Source: Candidatus Rokuibacteriota bacterium
Lineage (GTDB): Bacteria > Methylomirabilota > Methylomirabilia > Rokubacteriales > CSP1-6
Direction: 5' to 3'
NCBI GenBank assembly: GCA_003220685.1
Contig: QHTE01000050.1
Coordinates: 37,119 to 101,118 of the forward strand
Length of the DNA stretch: 64,000 nt
Part shown: one piece after another, positions 1-44,669 of the stretch
How the letters are laid out: each line of letters opens with the position of its first letter
Numbering within the stretch: position 1 is the stretch's first letter
Notes under the pieces: model-generated
What the model was told of the DNA's origin: nothing
Seen by the model: the letters and a program-made list of their open reading frames with translations, nothing else
Database searches by the model: none
Program-made: the position numbers and the translations under genes

Positions 1-239
1 CCCGCCCGCGGAGCCTGGATGTCCTGGCCGGCGCGCGGAGCCTGGATGTCTTGACCCGCCCGCGGGGCCTGAATGTCCTGACCAGCGCGCGGAGCCTGAA
101 TGTCCTGCCGTGAGCCAGCGAGCGAGCGGGGGGCCTGGATGTCCTGGCCACTGCGCGGAGCCTGAATATCCTGACCCGCGCGCGGGGCCTGGATGTCCTG
201 GCGGGAGCCGGCGAGTGAGCGCGGCGCCTGGATATCCTG
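1..239 (-). repeat. Tandem 27/39-bp coding repeats (QDIQAPR units)
   Basis: Eight copies of a 21-bp core encoding QDIQAPR. They are spaced by 6 bp (AG or SG, period 27 bp) or 18 bp (SLAGSR, period 39 bp). Order from the N-terminal side: SLAGSR, AG, SG, SLAGSR, AG, AG, AG, AG. The array is still running at the left edge, so total copy number is unknown. Confidence 0.95.
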
Positions 240-374
240 GGCCTTCGCGGTGACCTTCTTTAGCATCGCCTGAGCCTGGCTCACCTCGGCCGGGCACTGG
301 GTCTGCGCGTCGACGACAGGCGCCACGGTCGCGACGACTGCCACGCTCATGATTGCCGCCAAAAATCTCTTCAT
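1..374 (-). CDS. Secreted QDIQAPR-repeat protein, partial (C-terminus beyond window)
   Basis: I do not recognise this protein family. The frame reads leftward from an ATG at 374-372 and is still open at base 1, giving 124 codons. Residues 1-23 look like a signal peptide: MKR, then a hydrophobic run, ending VVDA before QTQ. A short segment with one Cys (CPAEVSQAQAMLKKVTAKA) follows. The rest is eight perfect copies of QDIQAPR joined by AG, SG or SLAGSR linkers. The copies differ at the DNA level almost only at synonymous positions (GAC/GAT, ATC/ATT, GCG/GCC/GCT, CCG/CCC, CGC/CGG, CAG/CAA), so the peptide itself appears to be selected. An in-frame ATG four codons upstream (386-384) is an alternative start, and a GGAAAG purine run lies 5' of the chosen ATG. 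It is transcribed divergently from the M16 genes. Function unknown; probably periplasmic or exported. Confidence 0.82.
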   Translation of the reverse strand, partial: MKRFLAAIMSVAVVATVAPVVDAQTQCPAEVSQAQAMLKKVTAKAQDIQAPRSLAGSRQDIQAPRAGQDIQAPRSGQDIQAPRSLAGSRQDIQAPRAGQDIQAPRAGQDIQAPRAGQDIQAPRA

Positions 375-541
375 CTGTCTTTCCATTTCCTCTCGATTGG
401 TTTGGGTTGGTTCGATCCGTTCGCGTCGACCCGCGTGATCCGATGTCACCCCCTCGGCATTGAGGTCAGTCGGTGTCGACCACTCTTGGGACGCACTGTG
501 AGCAACGGAGATGCCAGCCGCAGACTGTGGAGGGAGGACGA
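375..541. other. Divergent intergenic region
   Basis: Gap between the leftward repeat-protein gene and the rightward small ORF/M16 unit. It should hold promoters for both directions. No convincing -35/-10 pair stands out on either strand; TTGAGG at 460-465 has no good -10 partner. A strong Shine-Dalgarno tract (529-537) lies at its right edge. Confidence 0.4.
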
Positions 542-649
542 ATGAAACAAGCTACTTATTCGGAATCCTCAGGAGCGGTCGCCGGCGTTGTGCCCTGTCC
601 CGCGACGACAAGGGGTGCGGCATTCTGCCCGTTGCGGCGCTTGTGGTAG
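542..649 (+). CDS. Possible 35-residue small ORF or leader peptide
   Basis: An ATG at 542 opens a 35-codon frame ending TAG at 649. It is preceded by the best Shine-Dalgarno tract in this part of the window (GGAGGGAGG, 529-537, with suitable spacing). The peptide begins MKQATYSESS and ends CPLRRLW. It has no signal peptide or domain I recognise. It ends 11 bases before the M16 lipoprotein gene, which has no comparable ribosome site, so a translated leader coupled to that gene is possible. Short length and lack of any family make this tentative; the tract could be chance. Confidence 0.3.
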   Translation: MKQATYSESSGAVAGVVPCPATTRGAAFCPLRRLW

Positions 650-660
650 CCTGACACGGC

Positions 661-1992
661 ATGCATCGGATGATGCGTATTGTGCTGCTTTTCGGGCTCG
701 GCGGGCTCGTCGTCGCCGCCTGTTCGAGCGCGGGCAAGGCCGGATCTCCGATCACGGTCGAGGGCCCGACTCGGCACGTGCTGCACAACGGAGTTCGCGT
801 CCTCATTCAGGAGTACCCCTCCAGCCAAGTCGTCGCGGTCCAGCTGTGGGTGCGCGCGGGGAGCCGTGACGAGGCCGCCGCCGAGCTCGGGCTGGCGCAC
901 TATCTCGAGCACATGCTCTTCAAGGGGACAACGACCCGCTCGAAGGGCTTCGTCGACCGCGACGTCGAAGGGGTCGGAGGATTCGTGAACGCGGGGACCT
1001 CGCTCGACTTCACCTACTACTACGTGGTGATGCCGGCGGCTCGCGCGGTCGCGACCATCGAGATGCTCGCCGACATCAGCGTCAACTCGAGCCTCGACGC
1101 GACCGAACTGGAGCTCGAGAAGAAGGTCGTCATTGAGGAAATGCGGCTGAGCGAAGACACCCCGCGGCGGCACCTGGCTCGCCAGCTCTACGGGATGGTG
1201 TTCGACGGCCACCCCTACGGCCGCTCCATGCTCGGCACACCGGAGATCATCCAGAAGCTCACGCGAGAGACCTTGCTCGGGTTCTATCGCCGTCACTACG
1301 TCCCAGAGTCCTTCACCCTGGTCGTCGTCGGGCCGGTCGACAAGGCGGCGATAATCCAGGAGGCGGAGCGCACGCTCGGTCGGCTGCCGAGGAGCGGCTT
1401 CCAGCGGTTGCCCCAGTCGCTGCCCGCCACGCTCACGCCGAAGAAGAACGAGGTGCAACGGCCCGGCGCGCTGGCCTATCTGGGGATGGCATGGCTCGGC
1501 CCGAAGCTCGATCACGCGGACACTCCGGCCGTGGAGCTCCTCGTCTCGATCCTCGGTCAATCGCGCTCGTCACGCCTGCCCCAATCGCTCCGTGAGCGGC
1601 AGGCACTCGTCAACTCCGTGAGCGCCGACTACACCCCGCTCGAGGCGGGCGGCATGATCATGGTGACGGCGCAGCTCGAGTCCGAGAATCTCGCGCGCGC
1701 CGAGAGCGAGACCCTGAGGGAGATCCGACGCATCCGGGATCAGGGCGTGACCGACGAGGAGCTTCGCCGCGCCATCACGGGCGCCGAGGCCGACCACGCC
1801 TTCCAGAGCGAGACCGCCGAAGGGCGGGCTCGATCGTTCGGCCGCGCGGAGACTATATGGCGCCTCTCCGAGGAGCTCGCCTTCATCGATCGGCTGCGAT
1901 CCGTCACACCGGATCAGATCCGGCTCGCGGCTCGACGCTACCTGGATCTCGAGCGCTATGGACGGCTCGCGTTCGTGCCTCCGGCTCGATGA
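661..1992 (+). CDS. M16 family zinc metallopeptidase, lipoprotein (active subunit)
   Basis: Insulinase/pitrilysin-type (M16) peptidase of 443 residues, the usual size of a two-domain M16B subunit. The zinc-binding inverted motif is intact: HYLEH at residues 80-84 (His80, Glu83 general base, His84), with the downstream Glu ligand in IEEM near residue 160. The N-terminus is a hydrophobic stretch ending VVAAC, a lipobox with Cys21. The protein is therefore predicted to be a lipid-anchored periplasmic protease. Its stop overlaps the start of the next gene, a second M16 subunit lacking the motif, suggesting a catalytic/non-catalytic heterodimer as in mitochondrial processing peptidase. The substrate cannot be told from sequence. 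Confidence 0.9.
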   Translation: MHRMMRIVLLFGLGGLVVAACSSAGKAGSPITVEGPTRHVLHNGVRVLIQEYPSSQVVAVQLWVRAGSRDEAAAELGLAHYLEHMLFKGTTTRSKGFVDRDVEGVGGFVNAGTSLDFTYYYVVMPAARAVATIEMLADISVNSSLDATELELEKKVVIEEMRLSEDTPRRHLARQLYGMVFDGHPYGRSMLGTPEIIQKLTRETLLGFYRRHYVPESFTLVVVGPVDKAAIIQEAERTLGRLPRSGFQRLPQSLPATLTPKKNEVQRPGALAYLGMAWLGPKLDHADTPAVELLVSILGQSRSSRLPQSLRERQALVNSVSADYTPLEAGGMIMVTAQLESENLARAESETLREIRRIRDQGVTDEELRRAITGAEADHAFQSETAEGRARSFGRAETIWRLSEELAFIDRLRSVTPDQIRLAARRYLDLERYGRLAFVPPAR

Positions 1993-3293
1993 TCCGCCTC
2001 GGATTGCCGCTCGCATCGGCGCTCCTCGCCCTTGCTCTCACGGCGGGCGGCTCTCCGGCGCAGGAGCCGCCGGTCGCGCGCCACGTTCTTTCCAACGGAT
2101 TGACGGTGCTGGTGCGCGAGAACGACGCGGCCGGCGTGGTCGCGATCTCGCTGCAGGTGCGCGCGGGCTCTCGCTTCGAGACCGAATCGACCGCCGGCAT
2201 CACCAACTTTCTCCACCGCGCGATGCTCCGCGGCACCGCTCGGCGAACGGCGGTGCAGCTGGCCACGAGCTCCGAAGACATCGGCGGCAGCCTCGACGCC
2301 AGCGGCGAGGTCGAGTCGGCGGAAGTGCGCGGGCAGGCGCTTTCCGTCCACTGGGAAACGCTATTGGCGCTCGTCGCCGAGGTCGCGCTGCAGCCGACGC
2401 TGCCACCGGACGAGATCGAGAAGGAGCGCCGGCTGCTCCTCGGTCAGATCAAGGCGCGCGCCGACGCGCCGTTGTCGTTCAGCTTCGACGCCATGCTGCG
2501 GGAGCTCTACGGGAGCAGCCCCTACGGACGGAGTCACCTCGGCTCCAAGGAGAGCATCGAGCGGCTGACGCGCGACGATCTGCTCGCGCACTATCGCGCG
2601 ATCTATCAGCCGGGACGCATGGTGCTCGCCGTCAGCGGCCAGGTCGAGCGCCCGCGTGTCATCAAGACGGCCGAGCGCCTCTTCGGCCGCATGGCGCGCT
2701 CCGGGTCGGACACGCAGGTCGCGCCGCCCGTCACCGAGCCGTCCGGGGAACGGCGGGTCATCCTGCGGCCGGCCCAGCAGGCACAGATCCTGGTCGGCTA
2801 TCTCGGCCCGAGTCTCTCGGATCCTCTCTACCCGGCCGTTCGCGTGCTCGCGGCCGCGCTCGGTGGCGGCATGGCCGGCCGCCTGTTCGTCGAGCTCAGG
2901 GATCAGCGAGGGCTGGCGTACTCGACGGGTGTTTTCACGCCGTATCGCACCGGCCCCGTCTCCTTCGTCGCATATCTCGGAACCGCACCGGCTACCGCCA
3001 CGGCGGCCGAGGCGGGCATTCTGCGCGAGCTCGAGCGCGTGCGCGAGGCGCCGGTGAGCGGCGACGAGCTGGCGCGCGCGAAGGCGTACGTTCGCGGCCT
3101 GCTGGTGATGGATCGCCGCACCAACGCGCGCGTCGTGTGGTACCTGGCCTTCTTCGAGACGATCGGAGCCGGCTGGGACTTTCCAGATCGCTACGCTCGC
3201 GCGCTCGAGGCGGTGACGGCCGCGGATGTCGCGCGCGCCGCGGAGCGCTATCTGAAGCGGCCGAGCATCGTCGTGCTGCAGCCGACGCGCTGA
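1989..3293 (+). CDS. M16-like protein, catalytically degenerate partner subunit
   Basis: This 434-residue secreted M16-family protein starts at the ATG overlapping the previous stop (ATGA). Residues 1-24 form a signal peptide without a lipobox. The fold is kept (N-terminal VLSNGLTVLVREN, then VRAGSRFE), but the place of HxxEH reads NFLHR at residues 73-77. His, Glu and His are all replaced, so it cannot bind zinc in the usual way. It retains the glycine-rich and RGLAYS segments typical of the second domain. By analogy with paired M16B proteins, it probably forms a chamber with the upstream active subunit and helps bind substrate. Translational coupling supports a 1:1 complex. Confidence 0.85.
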   Translation: MIRLGLPLASALLALALTAGGSPAQEPPVARHVLSNGLTVLVRENDAAGVVAISLQVRAGSRFETESTAGITNFLHRAMLRGTARRTAVQLATSSEDIGGSLDASGEVESAEVRGQALSVHWETLLALVAEVALQPTLPPDEIEKERRLLLGQIKARADAPLSFSFDAMLRELYGSSPYGRSHLGSKESIERLTRDDLLAHYRAIYQPGRMVLAVSGQVERPRVIKTAERLFGRMARSGSDTQVAPPVTEPSGERRVILRPAQQAQILVGYLGPSLSDPLYPAVRVLAAALGGGMAGRLFVELRDQRGLAYSTGVFTPYRTGPVSFVAYLGTAPATATAAEAGILRELERVREAPVSGDELARAKAYVRGLLVMDRRTNARVVWYLAFFETIGAGWDFPDRYARALEAVTAADVARAAERYLKRPSIVVLQPTR

Positions 3294-44428: not shown

Positions 44429-44669
44429 CATCACCGTACGGAGCCGGGTCGCGCCTAGCTCAGCCCACGGTGGCATCGGACAAACCAATGAACGCCAACC
44501 GGGGCTCGCGGACCGCGCCGCAATGAACATCACCGTGCGGAGCCGGCTGGCGTCAATCTCAGCCCACCCTCGGTCCAAGCCGGCCTCACGGACCCCGCGA
44601 CAACGGAGCCGGCTGGGGTCAATCTCAGCCCACCCTCGGTCCAAGCCGGCCTCACGGACCCCGCTACAA
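44387..44669. repeat. Cluster of degenerate and tandem repeat units
   Basis: Two near-identical 66-bp direct repeats, 44538-44603 and 44604-44669, differ at only two positions. Each starts CGGAGCCGGCTGG and ends ACGGACCCCGC(G/T)ACAA. Upstream, a 99-bp more degenerate unit (44429-44527) shares CATCACCGT, CGGAGCCGG, CTCAGCCCAC and GCGGACCGCGCCGCAATGA. A further piece overlaps the end of the preceding gene from about 44387. The last unit overlaps the A of the next start codon. No gene is supported in 44429-44668. Confidence 0.88.

Follow-up and report, generated by a model that had tools for sequence, protein, structure and literature searches.

A 64,000-nucleotide stretch of a Candidatus Rokuibacteriota genome (genome G000, contig C13, positions 37119-101118; referred to here as the window) begins inside a gene for a protein of tandem QDIQAPR units, and this protein belongs to a capped, exported family that, by sequence and among the searches made here, is confined to Rokubacteria. 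The explanation that we favour, to which as a whole we assign a probability of about 0.4, is that these are envelope proteins, made under regulation, whose activity depends on multiple copies of one specific motif. The long form (type A) would be exported, and its two helical caps, each contributing one invariant cysteine to a disulfide, would hold a disordered loop in which the six-residue motif [D/E]-aliphatic-Q-A-P-R is repeated many times. As a multivalent ligand, this loop would bind a single envelope partner by the avidity of its similar copies, so that the number of copies could drift with the motif itself conserved. Expression would be set by sigma-54 together with an enhancer-binding activator, and a short form (type B) would belong to a circuit of a kinase and a sigma-54 regulator, its palindromes being flanked on either side by a sigma-54 site. 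The Rokubacteria, represented among the matches here by metagenome-assembled genomes (MAGs) only, gain a conserved exported family with a readable regulatory logic, and since the motif is nearly fixed while the copy number changes, the reader of the motif can be probed directly with synthetic peptides.

Repeat array, caps and distribution of the family

The coding part within the window (positions 1-374, minus strand; N-terminal 124 residues) was assigned from the frame 3-374, which reaches an assembly gap at the window edge, and from orthologues; its translation starts MKRFLAAIMSVAVVATVAPVVDAQTQCPAEV. A basic start, a hydrophobic core and the sequence VDA-Q mark residues 1-23 (306-374, minus strand) as a putative signal peptide, in agreement with the export proposed in the initial annotation. 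The N-terminal cap (residues 27-45; 240-296, minus strand) begins at the invariant Cys27 (codon 294-296) and is predicted to be helical in two orthologues. The remainder (1-239, minus strand) is the tandem array, of which eight QDIQAPR units lie inside the window and further units past the gap. Seven spacings separate the eight units, five of 9 residues and two of 13, the latter both at SLAGSR insertions (201-218 and 108-125, minus strand). All eight units have the same peptide in eight distinct 18-nt spellings, and the six variable nucleotide columns among them are all third codon positions, which confirms the synonymous variation described earlier. A gap of 183 N abuts the left edge of the window exactly; past it, on the same contig (locus L004), the array continues and closes with a C-terminal helical cap, ending ...SLAGAKSSAGSDAAKLVREAEAACKAGNMDAAKAKAVQAMGLMK-stop, with KLVREAEAACKAGNMDAAKAKAVQAMGLMK as the C-terminal end before the stop codon. 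The N-run as written breaks the reading frame, its length being an estimate. Elsewhere in the window, at 44538-44669, a 66-bp unit is present in two copies with 96% matches.

In type A proteins, the signal peptide is followed by an N-cap with one Cys, the array and a C-cap with one Cys. Exactly two cysteines were present in each of the 29 proteins read, which together hold 483 QxPR units (2-41 per protein), and three alignments of 22-23 proteins show no variation in either Cys column; the first Cys lies in CPxEV after the signal peptide and the second in EAEAACKAG of the C-cap. The two are probably joined by a disulfide. AlphaFold2 models of two orthologues, of low overall confidence (mean pLDDT 60 and 53), have helices at both ends, with pLDDT 85 and 92 for the N-cap helix block and 67-91 and 83-95 for ten-residue blocks of the C-cap; nearly all of the array stays below pLDDT 50 and is accordingly predicted to be disordered. 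In view of this predicted disorder and the variable spacing, a rigid solenoid was rejected.

Relatives that consist of the caps only were found as three proteins of 81 aa in the sister family f9 and as L167 and L169 in family f1. In L162, L163 and L164 (f9) and in L169, the first cysteine stands in CPxLIKQ, and a His aligns by eye with the second; L163 had no acceptable match in Pfam or NCBIfam. The f9 proteins, which the C-cap profile picked up, resemble type A in having a CP...-helix followed by a C-terminal helical hairpin, but differ from it in the absence of an array, in the His at the second Cys position and in having no sigma-54 site at threshold. Because such cap-only relatives exist, it seems that the array was inserted into a small exported helical protein, between its helix 1 and its C-terminal hairpin.

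The constraint on the motif was counted in 37 proteins, for each position given the other five. Gln is kept in 498 of 501 units, Pro in 498 of 524 (the other 26 all Ser, from two proteins) and Arg in 498 of 510 (Lys in 9). At the acidic position, D accounts for 406 and E for 84 of 536, and at the second position 495 of 498 units have V, I, A, T or S. In a separate weighted count, about 95% of the residues next after the Arg are G, S, T or A. Two proteins, L082 (7632-8510) and L154 (773-1498), keep the caps and the signal peptide with mostly SKDDQASR-like units, and the Pro is thus dispensable in some cases. Within an array, units resemble each other more than they do across arrays (similarity 0.898 versus 0.773), which points to concerted evolution and means that unit counts are not independent events. 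In addition, a 54-bp double unit past the gap recurs with identical bases, indicating that recent DNA duplication also enlarges the array. The initial annotation had attributed the uniform peptide to selection and not to recent slippage of the DNA; the peptide is indeed kept while the codons vary, but the exclusion of slippage is not supported as it was put, given the identical double units, the varying unit number and the greater likeness within arrays.

These figures also bear on a hydration or desiccation polymer, that is, a disordered mixed-charge chain that would protect the envelope physically and have no specific partner. The predicted disorder, the alternation of acid and Arg, the variable number and spacing of units, the two proteins that have switched to SKDDQASR-like units, and record titles that give groundwater samples or sampling depths in cm are all in line with such a chain. 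However, a pure charge polymer should take Lys in place of Arg, and the nearly fixed Arg (with Lys in only 9 of 510 units), like the nearly fixed Gln, counts against it, within-array homogenisation inflating such counts. We regard this polymer as unlikely, although with an appreciable share of the probability.

Matches were found in 34 of 59 genomes (the window's own included), all of family f1, one of which (G009, E=2e-5) held no repeat protein on reading; none of 24 genomes outside f1 gave a match. The relatives thus do carry homologues. A C-cap profile matched 50 of 95 genomes of the phylum, comprising 47 of 57 in f1 and three weak matches in f9. In G010, four C-cap matches lie at separate loci (L016, L165, L166 and L167), L167 being without repeats. 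A scan of genome_contigs with two conserved peptide patterns, which misses organisms that do not have these patterns, returned 150 stretches and 40 confirmed loci, all 40 titled Candidatus Rokubacteria or Rokuibacteriota. The genomes are MAGs in which many arrays are cut by contig ends (L064, L066, L068, L069, L071 and L090), and N-runs or breaks lie inside arrays at the left edge of the window and in L013, L022 and L083; because assemblies are broken inside arrays, array lengths and the distribution are probably underestimated, and because the loci are related, the counts are not independent and are inflated.

Promoter-like sites and neighbours of type A genes

A sigma-54-type -24/-12 element, TGGCAT-CTCCG-TTGCT (501-516, minus strand), which starts 142 bp upstream of the ATG of the window gene, was identified by a weighted-consensus scan. 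The scan used what we take to be the sigma-54 -24/-12 consensus, with weights of our own and a threshold of at least 20.5 out of 23.5. Of the 30 upstream regions of type A genes that were scored, 27 reached this threshold, the others being L068 (19.5), L079 (18.5) and L084 (16.0), and against 200 dinucleotide shuffles each, 28 of the 30 gave p<=0.05, L079 and L084 failing. The 30 regions form part of the 36 loci of the neighbourhood survey, from which L064 and L090 (without a start) and L082 were left out; among the remaining survey loci, L091 has a site and L075 and L077 do not. As controls, none of 182 upstream regions from ten neighbouring gene families, for which gene starts were crude, and 1.9% of 4971 random windows reached the threshold, as did none of seven activator genes and two of five kinase genes. 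Of 17 further copies and homologues, seven reached 20.5 (L165, L167, L170, L173, L174, L177 and L091; in L167 only 20 bp from the start used) and ten did not (L162, L163, L164, L166, L168, L169, L171, L175, L075 and L077). Among genomes of the window's genus, the -24 and -12 elements can be aligned, and the intervening bases vary. RpoN is encoded in 54 of 56 genomes of the family; the MAG of the window itself, which is 87.6% complete, gave no RpoN match. Type A genes are apparently expressed via sigma-54, judging from these promoter-like sites.

Further upstream, a sequence scan identified two palindromes as candidate activator sites, GGCAGAATGCC (619-629, minus strand) and, 35 bp from it, GGCACAACGCC (584-594, minus strand). 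These or close forms recur 33-35 bp apart upstream of the promoter, both being present in 22 of 30 type A regions, one in five and none in three. The exact paired pattern occurs in four of nine genomes of the genus, always at type A only, so no wider regulon was found; the reversed pattern used as a control gave one match, in G003.

The genes on either side of type A raise the question of processing. Two M16 peptidase genes lie divergently upstream in the window (661-1992 and 1989-3293, plus strand; the start of the second was chosen from sequence), and the initial annotation had suggested that the repeat protein is a substrate of this pair and a rhomboid. The linkage across genomes is real, 27 of 33 assessable loci having a divergent M16 gene upstream, but it is incomplete: M16 is absent from six, three of them being second copies whose genomes hold a standard copy as well. 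Two loci without it, L079 and L059, keep both palindromes, which therefore belong to the repeat gene; moreover, none of 36 M16 upstream regions has a sigma-54 site at threshold, and M16 is part of a larger conserved gene order with TlyA, NadK, RecN and SecA. A substrate relationship is consequently very improbable, and the first M16 peptidase is, on this evidence, a neighbour and not a part of the system. On the 3′ side, type A is followed in the same orientation by a gene for an HtrA-like Trypsin_2 protease, in 23 of the 32 loci that could be assessed. The protease at L004:5182-6528 carries a signal peptide and, by eye, a later hydrophobic segment; its C-terminal part gave a weak rhodanese-like match that stays below cut-off. 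Since both M16 and Trypsin_2 stand in a long conserved gene order, adjacency alone implies no functional link.

A short form beside a kinase and a sigma-54 regulator

Type B proteins are uncapped and 53-91 aa long; a gene pair for a membrane histidine kinase and a sigma-54 activator is divergent from theirs. Apart from the window gene, one DNA pattern found a single tandem-QAPR locus in the window's genome, on contig C63, where a 75-residue exported protein neighbours a kinase (HisKA, HATPase_c) and a response regulator (Sigma54_activat, HTH_8). A search with this kinase at E<=1e-60 matched 16 of 56 family genomes, the sensor half being matched in 12; with G005 cut by a contig end, 11 of these loci were assessable, and 10 of the 11 carry a divergent short QAPR gene. 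G007, outside this draw, also has such a gene beside a kinase, and in G076 (L203) a divergent sigma-54 site is present at the kinase with no recognisable QAPR ORF behind it. All 11 short genes have a sigma-54 site directed toward the short gene (20.5-21.5) and another toward the kinase (20.5-22.5), and all have 1-4 palindromes of the form GTTYC-N4-7-GAAC within 420 bp upstream, which lie between the two sites in the 10 with recorded positions. In base shuffles of six upstream regions, a slightly narrower palindrome pattern occurred 0.002-0.012 times per region. Sigma-54 sites at threshold and palindromes are both absent from two further short repeat ORFs, L039 and L046. The palindromes of type A and type B differ, so one activator need not serve both types. 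With kinase and regulator, the module spans about 3 kb in L005 and is compact enough for transfer as one piece to a laboratory host.

The make-up of type B also bears on another account, in which the arrays would be multi-copy peptide precursors cut at each Arg outside the cytoplasm to release short peptides, the type B peptide being sensed by the adjacent kinase and the regulator driving both genes (autoinduction). Type B has little beyond a signal peptide and a few units, it adjoins a membrane kinase with 4-5 hydrophobic segments (by a simple scan, in four loci), and the sigma-54 sites face both genes; the constancy of the Arg and of the residue class after it, and the Trypsin_2 gene after type A, also agree with cleavage. 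Multi-copy cores of this kind are known, the thiovarsolin precursor VarA having a repeating core that contains APR (PMC6511847). However, the neighbouring protease is HtrA-like and no clear Arg-cutter, and in 18 of the 26 loci where the sequence could be inspected, the window's included, type A is followed by a strong hairpin (<= -25 kcal/mol) and a T-run, so the protease gene is often transcribed separately; the conserved C-cap with its Cys would be needless in a precursor. The thiovarsolins need YcaO and TfuA, whereas the QAPR proteins carry a signal peptide, and the NCBIfam model NF033878 gave a weak match only, to L034 (E=0.027, 14.7 bits versus a cut-off of 35). YcaO was found in 6 of 57 family genomes and in none of the nine of the window's genus, too rarely for a thiovarsolin-like RiPP, which was rejected. 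We consider the precursor account improbable, although its chance is a real one, given a short form that is nearly all motif and stands beside its own membrane sensor. The chance is slim for its fuller version, in which QAPR arrays would be multi-copy peptide-signal precursors in a diderm lineage, type B being cut at each Arg and sensed by its own kinase, with the sigma-54 regulator amplifying peptide and sensor, and type A being a larger, capped, family-wide version.

Comparison with known systems

As the initial annotation had surmised, no family was found for the repeat: Pfam, NCBIfam and PDB gave no accepted match, and a fold search gave none among 82 matches at E<=0.001. The calcium-binding repeat family SMc04171 (NF046115) scored 26 of 625 bits with L007, below cut-off, and Pfam PF04159 (NB glycoprotein) reached a summed 30.4 bits (cut-off 27) with the same protein, with no single stretch passing; the sum was taken to arise from repeats and signal peptide, and the family was rejected. 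Also set aside were PDB 9e5c (E=1.7e-21), whose alignment consists of low-complexity TVEA-type repeats, and PDB 5kc1 (Atg38; C-cap profile, E=2.1e-5), which suggests a common helical hairpin and nothing more. The type A protein matched 29 plasmid records, all below 60% identity and taken as composition matches, 12 of the 20 listed being annotated as calcium-binding; an f9 cap-only protein had no plasmid match, and viral_contigs gave no match to one exact DNA pattern. In the open-licence library searched, no paper contained any of five peptide strings, and Rokubacteria were not found together with tandem repeats or sigma-54.

Among described proteins, Erp of mycobacteria has a signal sequence, conserved ends and short central repeats that vary in number between species (PMC2639381). 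The likeness is one of analogy only, Erp having PGLTS repeats and belonging to another phylum.

The layout of type B is like that of ZraP-ZraSR, from the envelope response of Salmonella and E. coli, in which a small exported protein is encoded divergently from a kinase and a sigma-54 regulator; there the divergent sigma-54 promoters are the targets of ZraR, and ZraP serves as a chaperone in the periplasm (PMC4987338). In NCBIfam, the type B regulator scores 397 bits against a ZraR cut-off of 760 and the kinase 207 against a ZraS cut-off of 479, type B is a QAPR repeat, and type A differs from ZraSR further in that no kinase adjoins it in the standard place. The divergent sigma-54 arrangement is nevertheless present, as sites predicted from sequence, at all 11 short genes beside a kinase. 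By analogy, type B is probably a main target of an envelope-sensing circuit and possibly its feedback partner. It is because of this zraP-zraSR layout, together with the general link of sigma-54 to the bacterial exterior made in PMC3162934, that we read the QAPR proteins as envelope proteins.
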